64,000 bases of DNA from Anaerolineales bacterium (GCA_013140605.1 JABFSL010000030.1:1-64000); one strand, 5' to 3'. Positions 47,829 to 62,178 are shown, counted from the stretch's first letter. Notes: generated by a model from the sequence alone, not told the origin. Translations and numbers: made by a program.

Positions 47829-50783
47829 GTGGCAGGACTCAAAATTCATCTCCTCGGCGGGTTGCAAATCACACGCGCCGACATCCCCATCACTGATTTC
47901 ATCTCCAACAAGGTTCCCGCCTTGCTGGTTTATCTTGTTGTCACACACCGCGCCCATACCCGCGATAAATTGGCGTCTCTGCTTTGGGGCGAGATGACCG
48001 ATGCAGACGCAAAAAATAATCTGCGGCAGGCGCTCACCAACCTTCGCAAAGTTGCCGATGACTGCCTGACCATCACACGTGACTCGATTGAATGTACGGG
48101 GGATTGTTTTCTTGACTCAACAAAATTTGAATCGGAACTAAAAACCGCATCTTCTCTTAACCTCGAGCCTGCTTCTGTTATTCTGACAGATTCCCTCAGC
48201 CTGTACAGCGGCGACTTCCTCGAAGGCTACTTCGTCCGCGATGCACCAGATTTCGAAGATTGGATGCTGACCGAACGCGCCCGCCTGCGTGAACTCGCGC
48301 TCCAGACCCTGCACACTCTGACTCAATTCCACACTTCACGCGGGAACTTTGTTGAAGCAAAGACTTACGCCTCACGCCTGTTGACCTTTGACCCGTGGCG
48401 CGAAGAAGCGCACCGTCAATTGATGCTGCTGCAAGCGCGCACAGGTCAATTCAGTGCGGCACTCTCTCAATACGAAACCTGCAAAAAAATATTGGATAAG
48501 GAACTCGGTGTCCAGCCTTCGCTTGAAACGGCCGCCTTGTACGAACGCATTCGTTCCGCGCGCCAATCGGCGCGGCATAATATGCCCGCTTCTTCAACTG
48601 AATTCATTGGGCGAGAAAAGGAGGTTGAAAATCTGCGCCGCATTTTGGCTGACCCAAAATGCAGGTTGATTACGTTGGCGGGTTTGGGTGGCGTTGGCAA
48701 GACTCGTCTCGCGCAGGAAACCGCGCGCGCCTGCGCGGACATGTTCATCAACGGCGCGTGGGTTGTTCCGCTGGCGGCGGTTGACACGGATGAAATTGTC
48801 CCCGCGGTGGGAAACGTGTTCAACTTCCCATTTCAAACAGGCGACCACAAAAAGCAGTTGCTCAACTTCCTGCGCCAAAAGGAACTTTTGCTTGTGCTCG
48901 ATAACTTCGAGCATTTGCTTGATTCATCGGCATTCTTATCCGAGATATTAAAGATTGCCCCCGAGGTAAAAATTCTCGTCACCTCACGCGAACGGCTGGA
49001 TATTGACGGCGAGTGGGTTGTGGAACTGCACGGACTGGCTGTCCACTCAATGGAAGCGAACCAGCTTTTCGTTATGAGCGCGAAGCGTGCGCGGGCGGAG
49101 ATTCAACTCAACGAGCAGGAAAATTTCACAGTCACAGAAATCTGCTCTTTGGTTGGAGGTCTCCCACTGGGCATTGAAATGGCCGCGGCGTGGGTACGCT
49201 CGATGGATTGTGAATCCATCAGGAATGAAATTCAAAAGAATTTGGATTTCCTCGCTTCAACCAGAAGAGATGTGCCCGAACGCCAACGCAGTTTGCGCGC
49301 GGCGTTTGAATCGTCATGGAATAAATTATCGGAAGTGGAACAAAAGACATTTGCGGCGCTCTCTGTTTTTCGCGGAGGCTTTACGCGCGAGGCGGCGGAA
49401 CGCGTGGCGGGAGAGATCGGGTCACTGGTGGATAAGTCGCTCTTGCAGCGTAATGGCGAACGGTTTGAGCTGCACGAGGTGCTGCGACAATTCGCGCAGG
49501 AAAAATTAAGCGCGAAGAAAAAGGCGCGCGATGCGCACGCCGTGTATTTTGCGGAGTGGTCTAAAAAATTTAAAACGGTGGACGAGCGCGAGTCGTTTCC
49601 CGCGATGAACAGGGAATTGGAAAATGTGCGCGCGGCGTGGATGTGGTCGGTCGAACAAAAGCAGATCGGAGCACTTGCGGATATTGCGCCGTTCGCAAAA
49701 CGCTATATGGATTTGCAGGGACGCTATCGCGAAGGCATCGCGTTATATCAACATGCGCTGGATGGTCTTGAATCTTCCGCCAGCGCAGATGACTTGCCGC
49801 TCGATACGCGTGGACATTTGATTGCGCGCCTGTTGATGTACAAAGCCATTTTCGTCGCTGACGCAGGCGAGCCCGATGCTTCAGCGAAAATCCTTGATTC
49901 GTGCCTAACGTACTTCCGCCGAGCTGATGACCAGGAACAAGTTGCCGTCTGCCTGAACGGGCTTGGGAGCGCGCATCGTTATATTGGGCAGGAAAAGGAA
50001 GCGGCTGTTTGTTATTCGGAGGAATTGAAGATTGCCCGTTCGATCAACAACAAAAAGGAGGAAGCCACGGCGTTGAACAACCTCGCTCTTTCCCTTACTT
50101 CCATGGGGAAATTCGAGGAGGCCGAACGCCTGCACAGGGAATGCCTTGCCCTGCGCCGCGAAATGAATGAATACCCAGGTATTGCTTCCAGCCTGATCAA
50201 TTTGGGCGTTGTTTTATACAACCAGAACAGGTACGACGAAGCAAAACCCCTTTATTATGAAGCCATTGAAATTTCGCGCCAGTTGAATCAAACCCGCCAG
50301 CAGGCTGCCTCGCTTGGCAACCTGGGAGGGGTTTTGTTGGAGGAAGGGCAATACGAAGAGGCGCTCAAGTTGTTCCTGCAAGGCTTGGAAATCCACCGCA
50401 ACTCAGGCTATCGCTTTGGCACAGCCATTGCGCTCGATAACGTCGGCACAGCGCATTACCATCTCGGCAACGAACAGGATGCGCTGTATTACCTGAAACA
50501 AGCCATTCGCGAAGCGCGCGATATCCACTCGGACCTCATCGCGCTGGACGCGCTCGAGTTCATCGCGGCATTACGCGCCAGGAACGGGGACAAAGAGGGC
50601 GCGCTGGAATTATTCGGTCTCATCCGCAATCACCCCAAGGTGGATACTGAAACGGTAGAGAACATCGAAAAACTGTATCCGCAGGTCGTGGATGGATTAA
50701 GACCGGATGATATCCGTTCGGCGGAGGAAAGGGGCAGAAACCTTGACCTGGCAAATGTGATGATCGAAATCATCGGTAATTGA
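47829..50783 (+). CDS. SARP/BTAD transcriptional regulator with NB-ARC (STAND) and TPR domains
   Basis: N-terminal LHLLGG..ITR winged helix and BTAD; LAGLGGVGKTRLAQE P-loop; C-terminal TPRs; GTG start. Confidence 0.9.
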   Translation: MAGLKIHLLGGLQITRADIPITDFISNKVPALLVYLVVTHRAHTRDKLASLLWGEMTDADAKNNLRQALTNLRKVADDCLTITRDSIECTGDCFLDSTKFESELKTASSLNLEPASVILTDSLSLYSGDFLEGYFVRDAPDFEDWMLTERARLRELALQTLHTLTQFHTSRGNFVEAKTYASRLLTFDPWREEAHRQLMLLQARTGQFSAALSQYETCKKILDKELGVQPSLETAALYERIRSARQSARHNMPASSTEFIGREKEVENLRRILADPKCRLITLAGLGGVGKTRLAQETARACADMFINGAWVVPLAAVDTDEIVPAVGNVFNFPFQTGDHKKQLLNFLRQKELLLVLDNFEHLLDSSAFLSEILKIAPEVKILVTSRERLDIDGEWVVELHGLAVHSMEANQLFVMSAKRARAEIQLNEQENFTVTEICSLVGGLPLGIEMAAAWVRSMDCESIRNEIQKNLDFLASTRRDVPERQRSLRAAFESSWNKLSEVEQKTFAALSVFRGGFTREAAERVAGEIGSLVDKSLLQRNGERFELHEVLRQFAQEKLSAKKKARDAHAVYFAEWSKKFKTVDERESFPAMNRELENVRAAWMWSVEQKQIGALADIAPFAKRYMDLQGRYREGIALYQHALDGLESSASADDLPLDTRGHLIARLLMYKAIFVADAGEPDASAKILDSCLTYFRRADDQEQVAVCLNGLGSAHRYIGQEKEAAVCYSEELKIARSINNKKEEATALNNLALSLTSMGKFEEAERLHRECLALRREMNEYPGIASSLINLGVVLYNQNRYDEAKPLYYEAIEISRQLNQTRQQAASLGNLGGVLLEEGQYEEALKLFLQGLEIHRNSGYRFGTAIALDNVGTAHYHLGNEQDALYYLKQAIREARDIHSDLIALDALEFIAALRARNGDKEGALELFGLIRNHPKVDTETVENIEKLYPQVVDGLRPDDIRSAEERGRNLDLANVMIEIIGN

Positions 50784-50890
50784 GTTCCCATTCGAATTTG
50801 ATGATATGACGATTTCCAAGGGATGAGTGTGTTATGATTTCGAAAAATTTCATTATTCTTTCCGCATCATAAGGTTGAATTTATTCATAG

Positions 50891-51460
50891 ATGGTTAATT
50901 CCACAGTGCAAGAATCAGATCAGGGTTTGATCCACGCCTGCCGCAATGGCGATGCCGCTGCGTGGGAACAGGTGTTGAATAAATATGAACGTCTGGTATT
51001 TTCAATCCCTTTGCGCTATGGACTCGACCGTGATGCCGCCGCCGATATCGCCCAGATCACATTCACCATCTTGATGCAAAGTCTGGATGAGTTGAGGGAA
51101 GACAGTCACCTGGGGGGGTGGCTTGCAACAGTGGCCCGGCGTCATACCTGGCGTTATCTTAAACGATCCAACCGCGAAGCTCCCCTTGAAAATAATGACC
51201 TGCCCGAAATCGAACCGTTATTTGGCGATTCCGGCGGCAACCCAATCGATCAATTTGAGCTGACAGAATGGGTGGATCAGGGGTTATCCAAAATCGATGA
51301 ACGCTGCCGCGACCTCCTTCGCGCGCTTTATTTCGACACCCAACAAACTTCCTATGCGGAATTGGCAGAACGTTTACACCTGCCGCTCGGAAGTATTGGT
51401 CCCACCCGCGCCCGTTGTCTTGAACGGCTTAAACAGATTTTGCAGGAAAACCAAAGCTGA
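50891..51460 (+). CDS. ECF-type RNA polymerase sigma-70 factor
   Basis: LIHACRNGDAAAWEQVLNKYERLVFSIPLRYGL; C-terminal sigma-4 SYAELAERLHLPLGSIGPTRARCLERLK. Confidence 0.93.
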   Translation: MVNSTVQESDQGLIHACRNGDAAAWEQVLNKYERLVFSIPLRYGLDRDAAADIAQITFTILMQSLDELREDSHLGGWLATVARRHTWRYLKRSNREAPLENNDLPEIEPLFGDSGGNPIDQFELTEWVDQGLSKIDERCRDLLRALYFDTQQTSYAELAERLHLPLGSIGPTRARCLERLKQILQENQS

Positions 51461-51545
51461 AAAATATCATTTTTATTTGTATGTATTTTCTGGCCGGAGA
51501 AAAGGCATTTATAAGTAGATAACCACATACTCTGCTGGAGACAAT

Positions 51546-52172
51546 ATGGAAAAAAACCCCCTTAATTTCGAACGCCTGGCTGATTGGATGGATGGCCGTC
51601 TTTCTGAAGAAGAATCCGCCGCGATAACAAAACAACTGGAATCTGCTGATGAGGCCACCCGCAAGAACGCCGAATGGCTGAGCGTTTTCGCCAAAGCGAG
51701 AAAGGCCGCTGTTCAAACATCCCCGCCTGCCGAATTACACACAGAATTAATGCGCCGCTTTAAGGCGTACTCCCGCGACCATCAGCAACCGGGCTTTTTT
51801 AAGCGTTTGGCTGCCACATTGACCTTTGACAGCGGCATGCAATTAGCCACCTCTGGCTTGCGTTCAGCCGGGTCGTCATCCTCACAACGCCAGATCGTTT
51901 ATTCATCCGATGTGGCAGACATAATCCTAAACTTCCAACCCCGCCTCCACGATAAAAATGTTGACATCGTGGGTCAATTCCTTCCCACTGATGTTTCCCT
52001 CACTGGACCGTTCAGTATTCAACTGCTTCAAGGCAATACTGAGTTGAAATTGATCACGGTTGATGATATTGGTGAATTTAGCATTGAGTCTGTCCCGCCG
52101 GGTGTGTATACAATGATTCTGAATGCTGAACAAGTCGAGGTTTTGATTTTTACAGAGGAGATACACTTATAG
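51546..52172 (+). CDS. anti-sigma-like protein without recognisable zinc motif
   Basis: N-terminal FERLADWMDGRLSEEESAAI resembles anti-sigma N-termini; position directly after the sigma factor; C-terminal beta-rich region. Confidence 0.5.
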   Translation: MEKNPLNFERLADWMDGRLSEEESAAITKQLESADEATRKNAEWLSVFAKARKAAVQTSPPAELHTELMRRFKAYSRDHQQPGFFKRLAATLTFDSGMQLATSGLRSAGSSSSQRQIVYSSDVADIILNFQPRLHDKNVDIVGQFLPTDVSLTGPFSIQLLQGNTELKLITVDDIGEFSIESVPPGVYTMILNAEQVEVLIFTEEIHL

Positions 52173-52174
52173 TA

Positions 52175-55060
52175 ATGGCAGATATTGATGATTCAGAAAT
52201 AAGCCAGGAACTCCTTGATACCTTGTTAAATTTGCCGACCCATGACGAGAAGTCGGTTTTTTTGCATTCTAAAAACCTTCTTAATGAAGAAGGTTTGCTG
52301 CTATTATTGGATGAGGCATCCTATTTGGTGGGGAATGACCCCGGCATGGCAAGACGGCTGGCCATCCTTTGCGAGGATTTTTCCGGGAGCGTGTCTGCTC
52401 CAATCATTGTCCCACGCTCCATTTATATCCGCGCCCAGACTCATGCGATCAATGCCGAATATGAGACAGCCCTCTCCCTGATTGCCTCAGCCCGCGAAGG
52501 ATATGAGGCTTTAGGATGTGATCTTGATGCTTTACGCACCAATCTGGGACTCATTCATGTGCTTCAAGAATTAGGCCGCTATCAGGAAGCTTTGGATGCC
52601 GGCAGGGTGATCCTGGATGCTCTTGAAGATGCCATACAGCCAGAGATCGCTCAAGTCTCGCCCGAACGCAGTCAGATCGCTGCCACTGCCTACCAGAATA
52701 CAGGCAGATGCTACGAGCAAATGGGACGCTATGATGAAGCGCTCAGCGCCTACGCTTCTGCTGAGTCGCTCTTCCTTGCGCTGGATATGACCGATCGCAT
52801 CGGTGACATTAGTAATAATCGAGGCATTGTCCTCTTGGGACTGGGCCGCGGGCGGGATGCGCTAACAGCTTTTGAAAAGGCGGAATCCATTTTTGCCGAG
52901 GCTGGCGAGACGTTATATCAGGCCCAGGCTCAGATAAATATCGGCGATGCGAGTCTTATGCTTGGGAGCTACACGCATGGACTCGATTCTTTCGAGCACG
53001 CCCGCCGCCTGCTCACCCCCCTTGAGGCACTGGCCGATAAACACGTTCTCCTCCTTGATATGGCGGATGCATATTTAACCCTTAATTTAAATGCTGAAGC
53101 CTTGGATGCCTATCGGGAAGCCGATGATCTATTACGGACAGCCGGAATGACCCATGACCGGGCACGGGCATTGTGGGGAATGGGGTCAGCGCTTATCGCT
53201 CAATTGTATTTTGAAGAAGCAGGGCAAATTTTGGCTGAGGCCGAAGCGTTGTTTTCCCTCGCCAATAACATACCCCTGCTCTCGAATGTTATTCTGGAGC
53301 GGGCGTTTTTGCTCGCGGCCCGCGGTGACCGTGATACTGCCCTGTCTTTGGCTGGTAAAGCGCTTGCCCTGGTATCAAACGATGATTGGCCCATCCAGCA
53401 GGCGTATGCCCACCTGCGCATTGCCGATCTTTCGCTGCCCAATACAAAGGAAGCAGAAACACACCTGCTTAGCGCCCAGAATTTATCGGATCGACTGGCT
53501 CTGCCAAATTTACGCTCCCGACTTAACCAACGGCTTGGTCATCTGAATTTGCTGATGGGCAAACCTGAAAAAGCGCAAAAGATTCTACAGGATGCCGTTG
53601 ATGAAATAGAACAGTTGCGGGATGTGCTCAAACATGAAATGGCGCGAACCTCATTTCTTCGAGACAAGACTGCCGTTTATGAAGATCTGGTCCAATTGCA
53701 CCTTGAGCGCGAAGATAAAGAGGGGATGGAACGAGCGTATGCGGTGGTCGAGCGGGCCAAATCCCGCACACTGGTGGACCTCATTACTGGCATCGTAAAT
53801 GCCCGGGCGGCGATCCCTGCTGATCTGGAACTGGCGACCAGATTACAGTCGAGTCAGACCGAGTTGAATTCCATCTACAACGAATTATTGAGCAGCGATC
53901 AGAAAACCAATATCCAGGAAATTTATTCCCGCGCTGTCAAACTGGAGCGGGAAATCAATCGCCTGCGCCTGCAAGCCACGGAGACAGCCTCAACAGCATC
54001 CGATCAATTTGGCATTCCATTATCGCCTGACTCATTGAACGATCAACTTTCTCCCGATGCCATTTTACTGACTTACTATATCTGCGGCGATGAGGTGCTG
54101 GCTTTTGTCCAGGCTCATGGCAAATTGCAGGTTGCCCGCCGTATTTGCAGCGCCAGTTCAGTGCAGGGACATTTGCAAAAACTTGCCATGCAGTGGGATC
54201 GCTTCCGGGCGGGCGGCGATTTTGTTGCCAAACACATGCAGCAGCTTGAACAGTCAACGCGGCGCATATTGGCGGCGCTTTATGACGAGCTTGTCAAACC
54301 AATCGAGACATTGTGGAGCGGCGATCTTGATACGAACAAGGCTGCGAGACTTGTCATTGTGCCGCATGGCGCGCTCCACCAGGTTCCGTTCCATGCCCTG
54401 TTCGATGGCACTCACTATCTGATCGACCGATTTGAAATTTCATACGCGCCAAGCCAGACTGTTTGGGCGCTGTGTCAAAACCGGGCCGCGTCGGCCTCAA
54501 ACAGAGCGCTGCTGATCGGCGTGGCAGATGACTTGATCCCTGCGGCGGAAACCGAAGTATGGGCGATTGCTAGGCAAATTGATAACTCCATTGTTCATAC
54601 TGACAAGTCACAGGCCACATTGGCGACATTCCAAACTGAGGCGCCTGGCTGCAGCATTCTCCATCTGGCTTGTCATGGATTGTTCCGCGCAGATAACCCC
54701 ATGTTTTCATCGCTTAAATTACATGACGGCTGGTTAAGAGCGGCCGATATAATGCAGCTTGATCTTAGCGGGGCTTTGGTCACATTGAGCGCCTGTGAAT
54801 CAGGCCGCAGTCAGGTTATTCCCGGAGATGAGATCATCGGGTTGACACGGGCCTTTTTGGGAGCGGGCGCATCCACGTTGGTGGTCAGCCTTTGGCTGGT
54901 GCAGGATGAAACAACGGTCTCCTTGATGGAGAACTGGTACACGCAACTGAAAGATGGGACGGGGCGGGCCGGAGCTTTGCGCGCTGCGCAGCTTGCGGTA
55001 AAAGCGGCCCATCCCCACCCATATTACTGGGCGCCTTTTGTTTTAGTTGGCCAGGGCTGA
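52175..55060 (+). CDS. TPR-CHAT protein (caspase-like protease)
   Basis: TPR N-terminus; CHAT HLACHGLFRADNPMFSSL and LVTLSACESG His/Cys motifs. Confidence 0.93.
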   Translation: MADIDDSEISQELLDTLLNLPTHDEKSVFLHSKNLLNEEGLLLLLDEASYLVGNDPGMARRLAILCEDFSGSVSAPIIVPRSIYIRAQTHAINAEYETALSLIASAREGYEALGCDLDALRTNLGLIHVLQELGRYQEALDAGRVILDALEDAIQPEIAQVSPERSQIAATAYQNTGRCYEQMGRYDEALSAYASAESLFLALDMTDRIGDISNNRGIVLLGLGRGRDALTAFEKAESIFAEAGETLYQAQAQINIGDASLMLGSYTHGLDSFEHARRLLTPLEALADKHVLLLDMADAYLTLNLNAEALDAYREADDLLRTAGMTHDRARALWGMGSALIAQLYFEEAGQILAEAEALFSLANNIPLLSNVILERAFLLAARGDRDTALSLAGKALALVSNDDWPIQQAYAHLRIADLSLPNTKEAETHLLSAQNLSDRLALPNLRSRLNQRLGHLNLLMGKPEKAQKILQDAVDEIEQLRDVLKHEMARTSFLRDKTAVYEDLVQLHLEREDKEGMERAYAVVERAKSRTLVDLITGIVNARAAIPADLELATRLQSSQTELNSIYNELLSSDQKTNIQEIYSRAVKLEREINRLRLQATETASTASDQFGIPLSPDSLNDQLSPDAILLTYYICGDEVLAFVQAHGKLQVARRICSASSVQGHLQKLAMQWDRFRAGGDFVAKHMQQLEQSTRRILAALYDELVKPIETLWSGDLDTNKAARLVIVPHGALHQVPFHALFDGTHYLIDRFEISYAPSQTVWALCQNRAASASNRALLIGVADDLIPAAETEVWAIARQIDNSIVHTDKSQATLATFQTEAPGCSILHLACHGLFRADNPMFSSLKLHDGWLRAADIMQLDLSGALVTLSACESGRSQVIPGDEIIGLTRAFLGAGASTLVVSLWLVQDETTVSLMENWYTQLKDGTGRAGALRAAQLAVKAAHPHPYYWAPFVLVGQG

Positions 55061-55207
55061 CCAACAATTGTATTTTTCAGCGTTCCAACAGGCATTTACT
55101 GGATATAGTCACTATTAAAGATCCATGGAAAGGCCGTAACTTTTTGCCTCCTAATACGACAAATAAGAGAGTATACGACCAGTCTATCCTGCCTAAAGGT
55201 TACCGTT

Positions 55208-56521
55208 ATGCACACTAAATTCATTTTGCGTCACTCCATAAATGTTGCGTTGCGATTAACGGTCTTCGCAACCTTTTTATTAAGTTTTGTCTGGGTCTCT
55301 CCGACCCGTCATGTGCTTGCGGATGGGGGAAGTTTCAAGCCTGGTGAAGTAATTGTCAAACTGGACCCGCTGACTGGCGCCGAAATCGAAGATATTAATG
55401 CGACTTATGGTACAACAACGCTAAAATCACTTGACATGCTTCCTGATATTTATCTTCTGGAATTACCCTCTGGCCGCGATGCCCACATTGCATCAGAAGA
55501 CATGGGACTTGACACGAGATTGGAATTTGCCGAACCTAATTTTATTAGCCAGGCTCCCGAGGCCAATCCGCGCGGAACATCCCGCTGGAGTGGGCTGGAT
55601 CCCGCGCCCTACGTCAGCCAGTACGCTGACAGTTTGATCCATTTAAACCAGGTATCAGCTATCAGCCGTGGAGCAGGGTCCGTAGTTGCGGTTTTGGACA
55701 CTGGCGTTCAACTCGATCATCCCGCCTTATCATCCAATTTTACGCTCATACAATATGACTTCATTGATGGTGACGCTGTGCCGGAAGATATCTTTAGCTT
55801 TGTGGATAGCAATGGCAATGGCCTCGTTGATGAGGCCACTGGTCATGGTACGCATGTAGCTGGTGTTATTCATCTGGTGGCGCCTGAAGCGCAGATCATG
55901 CCGCTGCGCGTGCTCGATTCAAATGGCGATGGTGATATTTTCACACTCGCCGAAGCGATGGTATTTGCCATCAAGAATGGGGCAAACGTAATTAACCTAA
56001 GCCTGGGAACCCAGGATAAATCCGATATACTGAAAAATGTGGTTCGTGAAGCGACACATAATGGTGTTGTAGTGGTAGCGGCGGCAGGAAATTTAAACAG
56101 CAAGGAAGCCCAGTACCCCGCAGCCGACAATTGCGCCTTATCGGTAACGTCTGTCGGTCCGTTGGGAGTCAAATCTGATTTTGCGAATTTTGACGCGAAG
56201 GTTGATTTTGCCGCGCCCGGCGAATCGATCTATAGCGCCTTTCCAAAGGATGGTTACGCCTCCTGGAGCGGAACATCCATGGCAACACCTTTTGTGGCTG
56301 GGCAGGCCGCTCTGATCCACAGCCTATCCCCTGCTTTGAATCCTCAGGAGATTGCCAATATTATGGGTGAAACTTCGCACTCCCTGGATCCACTTAATCT
56401 GTTATATAAAGGAAAACTTGGCAAAGGGTTAATTGATATTGATGGTAGTCTTGAGCTTGCTCTCAACGCAACTTTCCCCATAGTCAATCACGGATTAATT
56501 GGAGCAAGCTGCATTAAATAA
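55208..56521 (+). CDS. secreted subtilisin-like S8 protease
   Basis: Signal peptide, fervidolysin-like propeptide FKPGEVIVKL, DTGVQLDHP / HGTHVAG / GTSMATPFVAG triad. Confidence 0.93.
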   Translation: MHTKFILRHSINVALRLTVFATFLLSFVWVSPTRHVLADGGSFKPGEVIVKLDPLTGAEIEDINATYGTTTLKSLDMLPDIYLLELPSGRDAHIASEDMGLDTRLEFAEPNFISQAPEANPRGTSRWSGLDPAPYVSQYADSLIHLNQVSAISRGAGSVVAVLDTGVQLDHPALSSNFTLIQYDFIDGDAVPEDIFSFVDSNGNGLVDEATGHGTHVAGVIHLVAPEAQIMPLRVLDSNGDGDIFTLAEAMVFAIKNGANVINLSLGTQDKSDILKNVVREATHNGVVVVAAAGNLNSKEAQYPAADNCALSVTSVGPLGVKSDFANFDAKVDFAAPGESIYSAFPKDGYASWSGTSMATPFVAGQAALIHSLSPALNPQEIANIMGETSHSLDPLNLLYKGKLGKGLIDIDGSLELALNATFPIVNHGLIGASCIK

Positions 56522-56586: not shown

Positions 56587-56617
56587 GGAGACACGCAAAA
56601 TGCGCGTCTCCTTTTTT
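56587..56617 (+). terminator. rho-independent terminator after subtilase
   Basis: GGAGACACGC-aaaat-GCGCGTCTCC followed by TTTTTT (one stem mismatch). Confidence 0.8.
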
Positions 56618-56775
56618 AATACATTTTGTTATCAAAAAACTTTCCGATACCAATATTCGAATCAATTCTACCAATTTGTATTTTTTGACATTCATCAGTG
56701 CATTTGTCTTTAAAGAAACGTTAACAAAGTAAATGATTGTTAATATTCAAACTTATTTTCTCCCGGAGCAACCTG

Positions 56776-57597
56776 ATGATTGACACATTATCCATTGGCA
56801 TGTTAGTTGAAGATCGGTACAAAGCCCAATCTCAACCTGCTGGCATGATTAGCGCCTTGCAAGCCTGCGGACACCGGGTGACCTTGCTCGATCCTCAATC
56901 ATCCTCATACGAAGCGGGAAATAATTCCTGGCTCAGCAAGTTTGACCTGATCATCGCCAGAGGCCGCAGCCTTGGATTGCTTTATCTACTCGCCTGGGCT
57001 GAAGCGCAAGGGGTACCGACCATCAACCGGCGCGCCGCCATTGCATCAGTCCACAACAAGGCCGAAATGGCGGTTGCGCTTGCTGGCAGAAATTTCCCCA
57101 CACCGCGCACATTCCTTGGCCCGGTTAACACGCTTACCTGTCAGGTTCCTGATTCATGCTACCCGGTGATCTTCAAGCCGATCTTCGGTGATAACAGCAA
57201 TGGATTGCGCGTTGTCCAAAACTCTGCTGAAATTGAAGGTTTGCATTGGCCTGAGGCAACAGCGCTTGTTCAACAATATTTACCAAGTGATGGCTGCGAT
57301 CTGAAGTTATATGGAATAGGTGATCGGATATGGGTTGTCCGCAAGCCGGCTTCATTTTCCCCGGACTTAATTTCCAATTCAAAACTTCAAATCGAATGTC
57401 TCCCCACCACTCAGGCATTGGGCGAGCTGGGATATGAATGCGGAAAACTTTTTGGTTTGGATTTCTATGGAGTGGATTGCATCCACACACCGGATGGCCT
57501 GGTTGTCATCGAAGTGAATGACTTTCCAAATTACACTGGTTTGACTGGCATCGGCAGGGAATTAGCCAACTACGCTGTTCATCGAGCCATACATTAA
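56776..57597 (+). CDS. RimK-like ATP-grasp ligase (paralog 1)
   Basis: YPVIFKPIFGDNSNGLRVVQ and GLDFYGVDCIHTPDGLVVIEVNDFPNYTG ATP-grasp motifs; ATG at 56776. Confidence 0.85.
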   Translation: MIDTLSIGMLVEDRYKAQSQPAGMISALQACGHRVTLLDPQSSSYEAGNNSWLSKFDLIIARGRSLGLLYLLAWAEAQGVPTINRRAAIASVHNKAEMAVALAGRNFPTPRTFLGPVNTLTCQVPDSCYPVIFKPIFGDNSNGLRVVQNSAEIEGLHWPEATALVQQYLPSDGCDLKLYGIGDRIWVVRKPASFSPDLISNSKLQIECLPTTQALGELGYECGKLFGLDFYGVDCIHTPDGLVVIEVNDFPNYTGLTGIGRELANYAVHRAIH

Positions 57598-57627
57598 TAC
57601 GGAACTATAAATCGAGGAGTAAATAAA

Positions 57628-58473
57628 ATGAAAATAGCCTTCATAATAACCCACCATCCGCCGACCCGGCCAAGCCCCATCATACCGGAAGCGATCCGTC
57701 TGCTGTCTGAATGGGGTGTGAATGTTGATGTGATCTGTCCCGAAGAACAAATGACAGACTTGTCGAAAGTGCGGGTGGAACACGATTTGTATGTTCTTAA
57801 ATCTGGAACGGAACTTGCCTTAAGCATGGCGGGCATTCTGCATGTTGGCGGGGCAACCATCCTTAATCCCTACCCCGTTGCAGAAATGCTGCGCGACAAG
57901 ATCATGACCAGTCACATTCTGCAGGCGGCAGGTGTACCCACACCGGACGCATTTGTAACCGCAGATCCCAAACAACTTATACCGCTTCTTGATGATGGTC
58001 CGATCGTGGTCAAGCCTTATCGCGGTTCACAGGGGCGGGGCGTTCGCGTTATCCGCACTGCCAACGAATTGAACGAGACAACATCTGAAGATGGTTTTCT
58101 CTTCGCGCAGCGCTATTACGAACCCCAAGGTCTGGACAAAAAGATCTATGTGATCGGCGATCAGGTCTACGGTGTCAAGCGAGTCTGGCCGCCACGCACC
58201 TATGAAGAAAAATTGGGCGAACCATTCACCATCAGCCCAGATCTCCATGAGATCGCGATCAAATGCGGCCGGGCATTCGGTATTGGTTTATATGGATTCG
58301 ATGTAATCGAAAATAACGGCCGTTCATATGTAGTGGATATGTCCAGCTTCCCGGGCTTCAAAGGCGTGCCCAACGCCGCCTTACGCCTGGCCGATTACAT
58401 TTATTCCGCCGGCGAGCGCGTCTTAAGCGGCACCCCGCTTTTCCCAACGCTAAGAAAGGATGCTTTGGTATGA
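57628..58473 (+). CDS. RimK-like ATP-grasp ligase (paralog 2)
   Basis: PIVVKPYRGSQGRGVRVIR; GLYGFDVIENNGRSYVVDMSSFPGFKGVPNA. Confidence 0.87.
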   Translation: MKIAFIITHHPPTRPSPIIPEAIRLLSEWGVNVDVICPEEQMTDLSKVRVEHDLYVLKSGTELALSMAGILHVGGATILNPYPVAEMLRDKIMTSHILQAAGVPTPDAFVTADPKQLIPLLDDGPIVVKPYRGSQGRGVRVIRTANELNETTSEDGFLFAQRYYEPQGLDKKIYVIGDQVYGVKRVWPPRTYEEKLGEPFTISPDLHEIAIKCGRAFGIGLYGFDVIENNGRSYVVDMSSFPGFKGVPNAALRLADYIYSAGERVLSGTPLFPTLRKDALV

Positions 58474-59666
58474 AAACCTTAATCATTGGCACAGGAAAGA
58501 TCGGTTGCGGATTTGCAGGTCAGTTAATGCGCGCGTCTGGGCATGAAGTTGTCTTCGCCAGTCGAAACCCAGCCATGGTGGATTATTTCAACCGCATTGG
58601 CAGTTATCGCGTGCGCCTGGCTGCGGGGCAAAACGCCGAGGAGCACCTTATCGATCAAACACGGGCAGTCTCCACCTCCAACAAAAAAGAAATGGCCGAT
58701 GAATTGACAAGCGCCGATCTGATCATCACCGCTGTCGGAGCGGGACAGTTGGCCAAAATCGCCCCCATGCTGGCTGATGGATTACGCGGTCGCACCACGC
58801 CGGTAAATGTTCTGGCCTTCGAGAATATGACCAACGCTGGAAGTTATCTCCGACAATTGATCGCCGATAACCTGCCGCGCGATCATTCGCTCGCAGAACA
58901 TGGTTTTTCCAGCGTGCTTGTCAGCCGCGCGGTATCACAACAATTGGGAGATCCAACCAGCGACGATCTGATCACCTTCATTGGCGATCCCATAGATACA
59001 TGGGTTGTGGATAATGCGGCCCTTTGTCAGTCGCTGCCCGCGACACAGGGAATGATCGTTACAGAAAATTTCGAGGCCTGGATTCAACGCAAATTGTACA
59101 CATACAGCGCCGGCCACGCGATCACTGCGTATCTGGGTTATCTAAAAGGGTATCACTACATCCACACCGCCATTCGCGATCATGAAATCAGAAACGCGGT
59201 ACTCTCCGCCATGAAGGAAGGTCAACGCGGTTTGGATGCGCGCTATGGTCATGAAATTGCAGGCAGTACCCGTGACTTGCTGGATATCATTTCCCGCTTT
59301 GATAATGCGTCACTCAATGACCCAATTACACGGGTGGGACGCGATCCAAAACGCAAGCTGGGATGTGATGACCGTCTTGTAGGTGCCGCGCGTCTGGCTG
59401 AAAAGGCTGGAGTTAATCCAGAGATGCTGGCTTTTGGAGTTGCCGCCGCCCTCTTCTTTGATAACCCAGACGACCCTTCAGCCGCCGATCTGCAACACGC
59501 GATCAGAATTATTGGGGCAGGCTCCGCGCTTCGTCAGGTGAGCGGTTTGGATCCAAGCCGCGGGGTGGGAAGATTGATCGCAGATTTTTGGAAACAACTG
59601 TCGGCTGGCTGGCGAAGCGGTAATCAGCTTTTGAGTCTCAACTCGATGGTATGGGCCTGGAGTTAA
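58470..59666 (+). CDS. mannitol-1-phosphate dehydrogenase-like NAD(P)-dependent dehydrogenase
   Basis: MKTLIIGTGKIGCGFAGQLM Rossmann motif; VNVLAFENMTNAGSYL; TENFEAWIQRKLYTYSAGHAITAYLG. Confidence 0.75.
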   Translation: MKTLIIGTGKIGCGFAGQLMRASGHEVVFASRNPAMVDYFNRIGSYRVRLAAGQNAEEHLIDQTRAVSTSNKKEMADELTSADLIITAVGAGQLAKIAPMLADGLRGRTTPVNVLAFENMTNAGSYLRQLIADNLPRDHSLAEHGFSSVLVSRAVSQQLGDPTSDDLITFIGDPIDTWVVDNAALCQSLPATQGMIVTENFEAWIQRKLYTYSAGHAITAYLGYLKGYHYIHTAIRDHEIRNAVLSAMKEGQRGLDARYGHEIAGSTRDLLDIISRFDNASLNDPITRVGRDPKRKLGCDDRLVGAARLAEKAGVNPEMLAFGVAAALFFDNPDDPSAADLQHAIRIIGAGSALRQVSGLDPSRGVGRLIADFWKQLSAGWRSGNQLLSLNSMVWAWS

Positions 59667-59705
59667 ATATCCGCACCGTTCATAAATTTGGAAAGGATGA
59701 TTGCC

Positions 59706-59942
59706 ATGATTATTCAAAATAATTTTGCCGTCAAAGATGAAACTGACAGCCTGGAAAATTTGATCGAAGAAATTTCTGTAAGCCTGGGCGGGGTACTATC
59801 CCACGAGCGGATCGCACAAGTTGTGACTGAAATTGCCTCTGATTACCAGAATGCCACAGTGACTTCATTTGTACCAATATTCATTCAGCGATATGCCCAT
59901 GAAAGATTAGGTAAAGAAATACAACACAACAAAGCGAGGTAA
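59706..59942 (+). CDS. small helical protein, possibly DUF3562 (three-helix bundle)-like
   Basis: LENLIEEISVSLGG...VTSFVPIFIQRYAHERLG; ORF track start 59688, ATG at 59706 also in frame. Confidence 0.55.
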   Translation: MIIQNNFAVKDETDSLENLIEEISVSLGGVLSHERIAQVVTEIASDYQNATVTSFVPIFIQRYAHERLGKEIQHNKAR

Positions 59943-59945
59943 ACC

Positions 59946-60827
59946 ATGAGACTTTATTTCCTTCTTACACAGCGCGTTCCTGCGGTGCCAAGCCCGGTTC
60001 TGCTTGAAGTTTTTGATATTCTGAAACGTATCGGTTTTCATGTTGAATCTGGCATTGCGGAAGAAATCCTTTTGCAGCCAGATCATTTGGCAGTGGCGCA
60101 CGATCTTTACCTGCTTAAATCGCACACCGAATTATCCCTTAGCCTAGCGGGTGTTCTCCATGGACAAGGGGCACGAATGTTAAACCCCTATTTGTCCTGC
60201 ATCACTACTCAGGACAAAATCATAACCTCCCAAAGACTGCGCGCCGCTGATGTTTCGGTTCCGCAATCATGGGTAACCGGCGAGCTGGATCTGCTGCGCC
60301 CCATTATTGAGAGACAACCTTTAATTATTAAACCCTACCGCGGACATAGAGGCGCCGGAATACATATTGTCCGCACTGTTTCTGAATTGGAAGCGATTCC
60401 CGAACCTGAAACGCCCGTGATCATACAGGAATATATACCCGGCACTGGCGAGGATCTGAAGGTGTATGTCGTTGGCGAAAATGTTTTCGCTGTTCGCAAA
60501 ACGTTTTCATCCTCCAGCTTCACAGAGTTTGGCCGTCCCTGTCCGGTAAGCCCTGAAGTGCGCGAAATGGCTCAACGGGTTGGAAGGGCGCTCGGTCTGG
60601 GGCTTTATGGATTGGATGTGATCGAAAGCCCCAAAGGGCCGGTGGTTGTTGATGTGAACTATTTCCCCGGTTATAAAGGCGTGCCTGATATTGCCCCGGT
60701 AATTGCAAAATATATTGAAGAATATGCCAATGGAAATGTTGGGCTTAATTGGCCCTCCCCTGCCAGCGCTATAAACGCGGATAACCTGTCTTCATTTGTA
60801 ATGTTTAACATGGACCCACCACAATAA
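59946..60827 (+). CDS. RimK-like ATP-grasp ligase (paralog 3)
   Basis: PLIIKPYRGHRGAGIHIVR; GLYGLDVIESPKGPVVVDVNYFPGYKGVPD; closely resembles paralog 2. Confidence 0.87.
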   Translation: MRLYFLLTQRVPAVPSPVLLEVFDILKRIGFHVESGIAEEILLQPDHLAVAHDLYLLKSHTELSLSLAGVLHGQGARMLNPYLSCITTQDKIITSQRLRAADVSVPQSWVTGELDLLRPIIERQPLIIKPYRGHRGAGIHIVRTVSELEAIPEPETPVIIQEYIPGTGEDLKVYVVGENVFAVRKTFSSSSFTEFGRPCPVSPEVREMAQRVGRALGLGLYGLDVIESPKGPVVVDVNYFPGYKGVPDIAPVIAKYIEEYANGNVGLNWPSPASAINADNLSSFVMFNMDPPQ

Positions 60828-60870
60828 TAATTTCTGATATGTCGTATTATTTATAAACAGGAGACCTCCA

Positions 60871-62178
60871 TTGATCCACATCAAACCCAAACTTAATGCA
60901 TCACTTATAGCCATCATCGCTGAAGGCTTTTCATCCCGATTAAGTTTTGGTTTGATAAGTTTTATTCTGCCTTTATACGCGCACCACCTTGGATTGAGCT
61001 TGACCGAAATCGGTTTGCTTGCATCGCTGAATACCATCATTGCCATTGCGTTGAAACCCCTCACAGGCTGGCTGTCTGATCGCTTTGGACTCAAGCGCAT
61101 TTTTATTATATCGGTCTGCCTGCGCAGTTTGGTCGCGCTTTTGAATGCATATGCCGTGGTGCCATGGCAGTTGTATTCCGTCCGAATGGCTCACGGGCTT
61201 GCGACCTCGCTCCGCGACCCCTCCAGCAATGCCTTGATCGCTGACAATGGCGGAGAAAAAGCAGTGGCTTCCGCATTCGCCTGGTATCAAACCGCAAAGA
61301 GTGTGGCGGGTTCATTGGGAAAAGCGCTTGCGGGCGTTTTACTGGCTTTGACAGCCGCAAATTATTCCTTTGTTTTTTTTGTTGCTTTTTTATTATCCGT
61401 GCTGCCGCTGGTGGTTGTGGCCCTTTTTGTAAAAGAGACGCATCCGGAAAAGCAATCTATTTCAACCCCTAAAGTTTCTACTCAACCTGTGCAAAAACAA
61501 GCTGTAAAGGGAATCCGCAATTCGTGGCAGTCAATCGCTCCTTATATTGGTTTCGGCTTTTTGATCAGTTGCACTGCTGAAATGATGACAGGCCTGTTCC
61601 CAATTTTGGCCATAGAATATGCGGGGTTGAGCGAAGTTCAGGTGGGTATTATTTTCTCAATTTCAACCTTCGCTGTCCTGATCCTGGGTCCATTATTCGG
61701 CTGGCTGTCTGATAATGTAAGCCGAAAATTGGTGCTCATGATCCGAGGGCTTGCGAATATGCTTTCCTCGCTCATCTTCATTTTCTTCCCCGGCTTTTTG
61801 GGAATTGCCATTGGCAAACTTGCTGATGATGCCGGAAAATCCGCTTTTCGCCCGGCGTGGGGATCCTTAATGGCACACGTATCAAGTTTTGATAAACAAC
61901 GACGGGCGCAGACAATGAGCTGGATGAGCATGGGAGAGGATGCGGGTGATATTGTGGGTCCCATCCTTTCAGGCTTCCTATGGAGCACATGGGGTATTAC
62001 TTTTGCCCTGGGAACGCGCGTTGCGCTTGCAATTGTTACTGAGATATATTCATTAACTCTGGCTAACTCCATGGAAAAAAGAATATCTTATAATGGAGAC
62101 ACAAAAGAATTCAAAGATACTGCCTACCTTCCCAAGGTACATATCTTGAATGACGATATCCGACAGGCGGAAAAATAA
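60871..62178 (+). CDS. MFS transporter
   Basis: 12-TM pattern; PLTGWLSDRFGLKRIF and PLFGWLSDNVSRKLVL MFS motifs; TTG start. Confidence 0.88.
   Translation: MIHIKPKLNASLIAIIAEGFSSRLSFGLISFILPLYAHHLGLSLTEIGLLASLNTIIAIALKPLTGWLSDRFGLKRIFIISVCLRSLVALLNAYAVVPWQLYSVRMAHGLATSLRDPSSNALIADNGGEKAVASAFAWYQTAKSVAGSLGKALAGVLLALTAANYSFVFFVAFLLSVLPLVVVALFVKETHPEKQSISTPKVSTQPVQKQAVKGIRNSWQSIAPYIGFGFLISCTAEMMTGLFPILAIEYAGLSEVQVGIIFSISTFAVLILGPLFGWLSDNVSRKLVLMIRGLANMLSSLIFIFFPGFLGIAIGKLADDAGKSAFRPAWGSLMAHVSSFDKQRRAQTMSWMSMGEDAGDIVGPILSGFLWSTWGITFALGTRVALAIVTEIYSLTLANSMEKRISYNGDTKEFKDTAYLPKVHILNDDIRQAEK

Follow-up and report, generated by a model that had tools for sequence, protein, structure and literature searches.

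A conserved cassette of ECF sigma factor, anti-sigma-like protein, TPR-CHAT protease and subtilase in Anaerolineales: a candidate proteolytic sigma switch

Gene content and conservation of the cassette

Four co-directional genes, specifying an extracytoplasmic function (ECF) sigma factor, a 208-amino-acid (aa) anti-sigma-like protein, a TPR-CHAT protease and an S8 subtilase, form the subject of this study. They lie in a stretch of DNA of 64,000 nt from an Anaerolineales bacterium (GCA_013140605.1 JABFSL010000030.1:1-64000), the whole of which is referred to below as the window (Table 1). The best reading of this cassette is that the CHAT protease would release the sigma factor by cutting the anti-sigma-like protein, and its basis is an invariant arginine, Arg106, in the linker of the latter. 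An earlier reading of the same DNA, made from the sequence alone (the sequence-only reading), had joined the four genes with a preceding STAND regulator gene in a candidate signalling or conflict module. All five open reading frames were found where it had placed them, with the domains it had assigned (Pfam, NCBIfam).

Table 1. Coordinates of the cassette, its putative control elements and neighbouring genes within the window
Feature	Position	Strand	Remarks or basis
ECF sigma factor, 189 aa	50891..51460	+	Only sigma-70 regions 2 and 4
Anti-sigma-like protein, 208 aa	51546..52172	+	N-terminal anti-sigma match; AlphaFold2 (AF2) domains; HxxxCxxC in relatives
Codon of linker Arg106, predicted P1 residue of CHAT cleavage	51861..51863	+	
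TPR-CHAT caspase-like protease, 961 aa, His834 and Cys874	52175..55060	+	Pfam CHAT
S8 subtilase, 437 aa, signal-like N-terminus, Fervidolysin-type prodomain	55208..56521	+	Pfam
Terminator-like stem-loop and T-run after the S8 gene	56588..56616	+	Read directly off the sequence
Promoter-like motif GTATTTT-N15-GCATTT before the anti-sigma-like and CHAT genes	51483..51510	+	Window scan; conserved in orthologs
Promoter-like motif GTATTTT-N15-GCATTT before the S8 gene	55070..55097	+	Window and genome scans
Third promoter-like motif GTATTTT-N15-GCATTT, before the ATP-grasp operon	56678..56705	+	Window and genome scans
Putative further regulon, ATP-grasp/MFS operon	56737..62178	+	Pfam; third motif upstream
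STAND regulator gene, BTAD/NB-ARC/TPR	47829..50783	+	

TPR-CHAT proteases are widespread in bacteria. The protein specified here has a CHAT domain (Pfam, 5e-64; assigned to clan CD) together with TPRs, and both of its motifs, HLACHG and SACESG, are intact. The sigma factor matches Sigma70_r2 (Pfam, 1.3e-9), Sigma70_r4 and the NCBIfam sigma70-ECF model (5e-20), while the protease that ends the cassette matches Peptidase_S8 (Pfam, 7.8e-44), retains the complete triad in VLDTG, GHGTH and GTSMA, and begins with a hydrophobic N-terminus of the secretion type. The terminator described earlier after the S8 gene is visible as a stem and T-run, though it is missing from the plus-strand terminators reported by a generic scan.

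The order ECF sigma, anti-sigma-like protein, TPR-CHAT and S8 recurs in other Chloroflexota and in Rubrobacteraceae, with identities of 36–71% in other families and Rubrobacteraceae, and about 51–61% for the sigma orthologs that adjoin anti-sigma-like and CHAT genes. Two whole genomes of the same order of bacteria carry it without the STAND gene, with identities for sigma, anti-sigma-like protein, CHAT and S8 of 62, 52, 71 and 64% (L024) and of 52, 36, 48 and 54% (L025). An initial contig scan with a single protein as query gave no match, and a scan of GTDB contigs revealed further orthologs in metagenome-assembled genomes of Chloroflexota (Anaerolineales, Chloroflexales, Ardenticatenales and one unplaced) and in Rubrobacteraceae. 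By tblastn, S8 adjoins the cassette wherever an ortholog locus of the window clade is complete, lying downstream but in L074 and L077 upstream, and it is present in the GC-rich Rubrobacteraceae loci L072, L073 and L077. For a broader view, 400 Chloroflexota genomes were searched with the profile of the anti-sigma-like protein alone, and 32 of the stronger matches were fetched; the neighbours of the gene included CHAT in 29/32, a sigma gene in 28/32 and S8 in 13/32. Among Actinomycetota, 11 strong loci have sigma, anti-sigma-like and CHAT genes, ten of them with S8 and the last cut by a contig end. Sigma, anti-sigma-like protein and CHAT thus co-occur almost always and S8 often, and since an identical gene order recurs across two phyla, the association exceeds chance. 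Conservation of this neighbourhood had been put forward in the sequence-only reading as one way to check it, and the cassette does recur, with the catalytic His834 and Cys874 of CHAT invariant in 47/47 sequences.

Two types of sigma factor occupy the cassette position, sigmaA (ECF, the type found in the window) and sigmaB (mostly 225–320 aa), the latter being a sigma group that has diverged strongly and is linked to CHAT. Four sigmaB genes at the sigma position (L027, L028, L029 and L030; 232–258 aa) gave no sigma match in Pfam. Within the genus of the window, CHAT was found in only one of 57 genomes, and is for this reason regarded as accessory there, and probably acquired. The STAND gene, which had been counted as a member of the module, is ruled out by synteny: relatives have no copy next to the cassette, and an ortholog of 65% identity occurs in a congener without the four genes. 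It is AfsR-like, is unlinked to the cassette and has scattered relatives in the genus.

The anti-sigma-like protein, its invariant arginine and the CHAT protease

The 208-aa protein was described in the sequence-only reading as having an anti-sigma-like N-terminus without a zinc motif, and this was borne out. NCBIfam anti-sigma models matched over the N-terminus only, at 5.5e-5, which is below the curated cut-off, and the HxxxCxxC motif (zf-HC2/ZAS) is absent from the window protein and its close orthologs. Aligned relatives carry Cys at both positions of the motif in 34/51 cases, and one of them (L027) has a zf-HC2 match; judged from this alignment, the window clade has lost a zinc motif that its relatives carry. 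A PDB search with the protein alone gave no match, and the family profile matched the solved anti-sigmas DdvA (E 0.0057) and ChrR. The C-terminus weakly resembles CarboxypepD_reg (Pfam, E 0.048), and a fold search with the beta domain returned only weak Fn3/Ig-like matches. In the AF2 model, residues 8–78 form a helical domain and residues 115–206 a beta domain, and the segment between them (79–113) has a predicted local distance difference test score (pLDDT) below 50.

Arg106 lies within this low-pLDDT segment and is invariant in 71/71 distinct sequences, drawn from two phyla and having a median identity to the window protein of 23%. Only one other residue is invariant across the 71 sequences, Gly143 in the beta domain. 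The context of the arginine is usually [G/A]-[V/L]-R-[G/S/T/A], and a P1 cleavage site would be expected to look much like this, with a basic residue that never varies and a small one after it, set in an otherwise variable linker. In four Actinomycetota loci (L190, L191, L192 and L196), a beta domain with the invariant Arg is specified beside a sigma gene, and no CHAT gene was found nearby.

The best fold matches of the CHAT model were Csx29 (Z 30) and separase, the protease domain of the Chaetomium thermophilum enzyme aligning with Z 27 and 3.3 Å over 320 residues. Csx29 cuts Csx30 and so frees CASP-sigma in the type III-E Craspase of clustered regularly interspaced short palindromic repeats (CRISPR) immunity (PMC10028731), and Arg is the P1 residue taken by separase, MALT-1 and gingipain-R (PMC4626109).

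A promoter-like motif and the predicted regulon

The sequence GTATTTT-N14/15-GCATNT stands upstream of both the anti-sigma-like gene and the S8 gene and is conserved in orthologs. With spacers of N13-16, it occurs three times in the window, at 51483, 55070 and 56678, where 0.08 matches were expected, and six times in the 3.9 Mb genome compared with two for a reversed control; with the N14/15 spacing, the three window sites are the only ones in the genome. The copy before S8 is found at the same position in L024, L070, L072 and L073. An ECF-type promoter had been suspected in two intervals. A promoter-like site lies in 55061-55207 and none in 50784-50890, between the STAND and sigma genes; the window has no copy of the motif ahead of the sigma gene. 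The third site lies beyond the interval that had been considered. A scan for sigma-70 promoters found no site before the anti-sigma-like or S8 genes and no excess over shuffled sequences. The GTATTTT box precedes the anti-sigma-like gene in 19/39 sigmaA loci, in 2/29 sigmaB loci and in 1.3% of background windows; a box that tracks the sigma type in this way behaves as would be expected of a cognate promoter.

In a sister clade of sigmaA, the second element is CTCTGT, and GTATTTT-N15-CTCTGT has 17 sites in seven genomes compared with none for the reversed control. The genes following these sites are S8 or anti-sigma-like genes in about half of the cases and others otherwise. One gene behind a CTCTGT-type site reads as a secreted glycoside hydrolase, and in two genomes (G405:C153 and G439:C138; L151 and L152) GTATTTT-N15-CTCTGT precedes an orthologous gene for a 437-aa glycosyltransferase-like protein. 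The GCATNT-type motif was also met in other genomes, in G571 before an S8 gene that lies on a separate contig and in G568 before a second anti-sigma-like gene. In an Ardenticatenales genome, two neighbouring secreted S8-like genes on another contig (G565:C195; L134 and L139) each follow GTATTTT-N14-GCATTT. The genes behind the motif in G571, G568 and G565 were identified by reading their sequences rather than by Pfam. The predicted regulon is largely one of secreted hydrolases.

The operon downstream of the third site specifies three RimK-like ATP-grasp proteins, a mannitol-dehydrogenase-like protein, a product of 84 aa and a transporter of the major facilitator superfamily (MFS), and may represent a pathway for a small peptide or an amino-acid conjugate. 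The ATP-grasp gene that was tested is absent from 30 congeners.

Proposed mechanism, alternatives and related systems

At rest, the helical N-domain of the cytosolic anti-sigma-like protein would keep the ECF sigma bound, as suggested by the partial anti-sigma match, the zinc motif of relatives and the gene order. The TPR part would sense a signal and so activate the CHAT protease, which would then cut after Arg106, in the linker between the helical and beta domains, and the freed sigma would read GTATTTT-N14/15-GCATNT promoters, a motif that is conserved and follows the sigma type. The output would consist of secreted S8, the ATP-grasp/MFS operon in this genome, and, as feedback, more anti-sigma and CHAT. 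The subtilase had been proposed as either effector or upstream trigger; its place as effector, that is, as output, is favoured because it shares the promoter-like motif with the anti-sigma-like and CHAT genes. Taken together, cleavage after Arg106, with release of sigma and transcription of both the secreted protease and the brake, is on balance probable.

Several observations weigh against this mechanism. Arg106 shows the same invariance at loci where no neighbouring CHAT was found (L092, L094, L107, L190-L192 and L196), so that its role may instead be in sigma binding or folding, and the actinobacterial proteins L190-L197 keep the Arg without a recognisable anti-sigma N-domain, a genuine difficulty for the simple model. 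The AF2 model is a weak one (mean pLDDT 66, predicted template modelling score 0.45, nine sequences). The motif before S8 was not found in L025, L071 and L076, nor was the GTATTTT box in several Rubrobacterales loci. The cut sites of Craspase are not conserved (PMC11106740), and the precedent therefore does not require an invariant site. Asp911 of CHAT was considered as a distinguishing ligand of a P1 Arg and was dropped as not specific, being present also in the unlinked CHAT of L036.

Among the alternatives, CHAT might be a mere output or scaffold, the anti-sigma-like protein being released when a ligand binds to its beta domain. That domain is conserved and holds the invariant Gly143, and one promoter-like site is common to the anti-sigma-like and CHAT genes, making CHAT a predicted target as well; nevertheless, invariant catalytic His and Cys argue for protease activity, and a purely conformational switch would not be expected to keep an Arg invariant within a linker that is modelled as disordered, so that this explanation is considered unlikely. 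Direct degradation of the sigma by CHAT and S8 as the means of keeping it inactive, without any anti-sigma, is quite improbable. A review does propose proteolytic control of ECF54 sigmas, from their carboxypeptidase, subtilase and CHAT neighbours (PMC8999054), but the N-domain of the 208-aa protein is anti-sigma-like and in relatives bears zinc ligands, the linker between sigma regions 2 and 4 has no invariant basic residue, and an S8 protease with a secretion-type N-terminus should not meet a cytoplasmic sigma.

The conflict or programmed-death setting proposed in the sequence-only reading finds no support here, nor does a defence role for the cassette. A module for phage defence or programmed death, with sensing by the STAND protein, could be imagined from the adjoining position of that gene and from the related protease and sigma release of Craspase (PMC10028731). 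It is very improbable, however, given that conservation of the cassette does not extend to the STAND gene, that PADLOC returned only general TPR/subtilase models and weak matches and no named defence system, that a search of 38000-64000 gave no CRISPR-like repeat and one of the genome assembly no member of the RAMP family, and that the predicted targets are mostly hydrolases for export. A scan of IMG/VR viral sequences with a restrictive pattern also found no relative.

The cassette may be compared with several known systems. Two elements of the picture were already known, namely the neighbourhood association of ECF54 and the protease, sigma-inhibitor and sigma logic of Craspase (PMC10028731). 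New here, allowing for possible earlier partial description in the primary ECF classification literature, are the anti-sigma-like identity of the 208-aa protein, its invariant Arg, a promoter-like motif that several genes share and whose second element is specific to the clade, and a predicted regulon of subtilases. The TPR-CHAT case studied in the cited papers is the CRISPR-linked Csx29, and for a family free of CRISPR the present locus points to a probable substrate with a probable cut site, together with a promoter motif and output genes.

DdvA (PDB 8rot, 8rw5) was matched by both the anti-sigma profile and the CHAT fold search, so that an anti-sigma and a CHAT-type domain are physically joined elsewhere; DdvA is a single membrane-bound chain, whereas the window specifies two soluble proteins. 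Separase (ctSPD; 5fby, 5fc2) shares the fold of the protease domain and cleaves after Arg, but is a eukaryotic cohesin protease with no link to sigma factors. ECF54 sigmas are described as having carboxypeptidase, subtilase and CHAT neighbours and as lacking an anti-sigma (PMC8999054, citing Casas-Pastor 2021 and Huang 2015). The window likewise has sigma, subtilase and CHAT, a likeness at the level of gene neighbourhood, and the carboxypeptidase protein of ECF54 plausibly corresponds to the 208-aa family, given the weak CarboxypepD_reg match of the latter. The window differs in the anti-sigma-like N-domain, which suggests that the ECF54 carboxypeptidase protein is an anti-sigma or its remnant. 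The output arm of Craspase also combines TPR-CHAT, an ECF sigma and a sigma inhibitor (here putative), and its Csx29 is the best match of the CHAT model. The differences are that neither gRAMP/Cas7-11 nor CRISPR was found here, within the ranges given above, that the 208-aa protein has no Csx30 match by sequence search, that an invariant Arg would take the place of a non-conserved cut site, and that the predicted output is a subtilase. There is about an even chance that the cassette is a widespread, CRISPR-free relative of the Craspase output arm, with a separase-like CHAT cleaving a soluble anti-sigma at one invariant Arg to switch on secreted subtilases, ECF54 having had an anti-sigma all along. 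If so, the view of ECF54-like groups as lacking one would be corrected, and the sigma switch of Craspase would appear as one branch of an older proteolytic device for sigma release.

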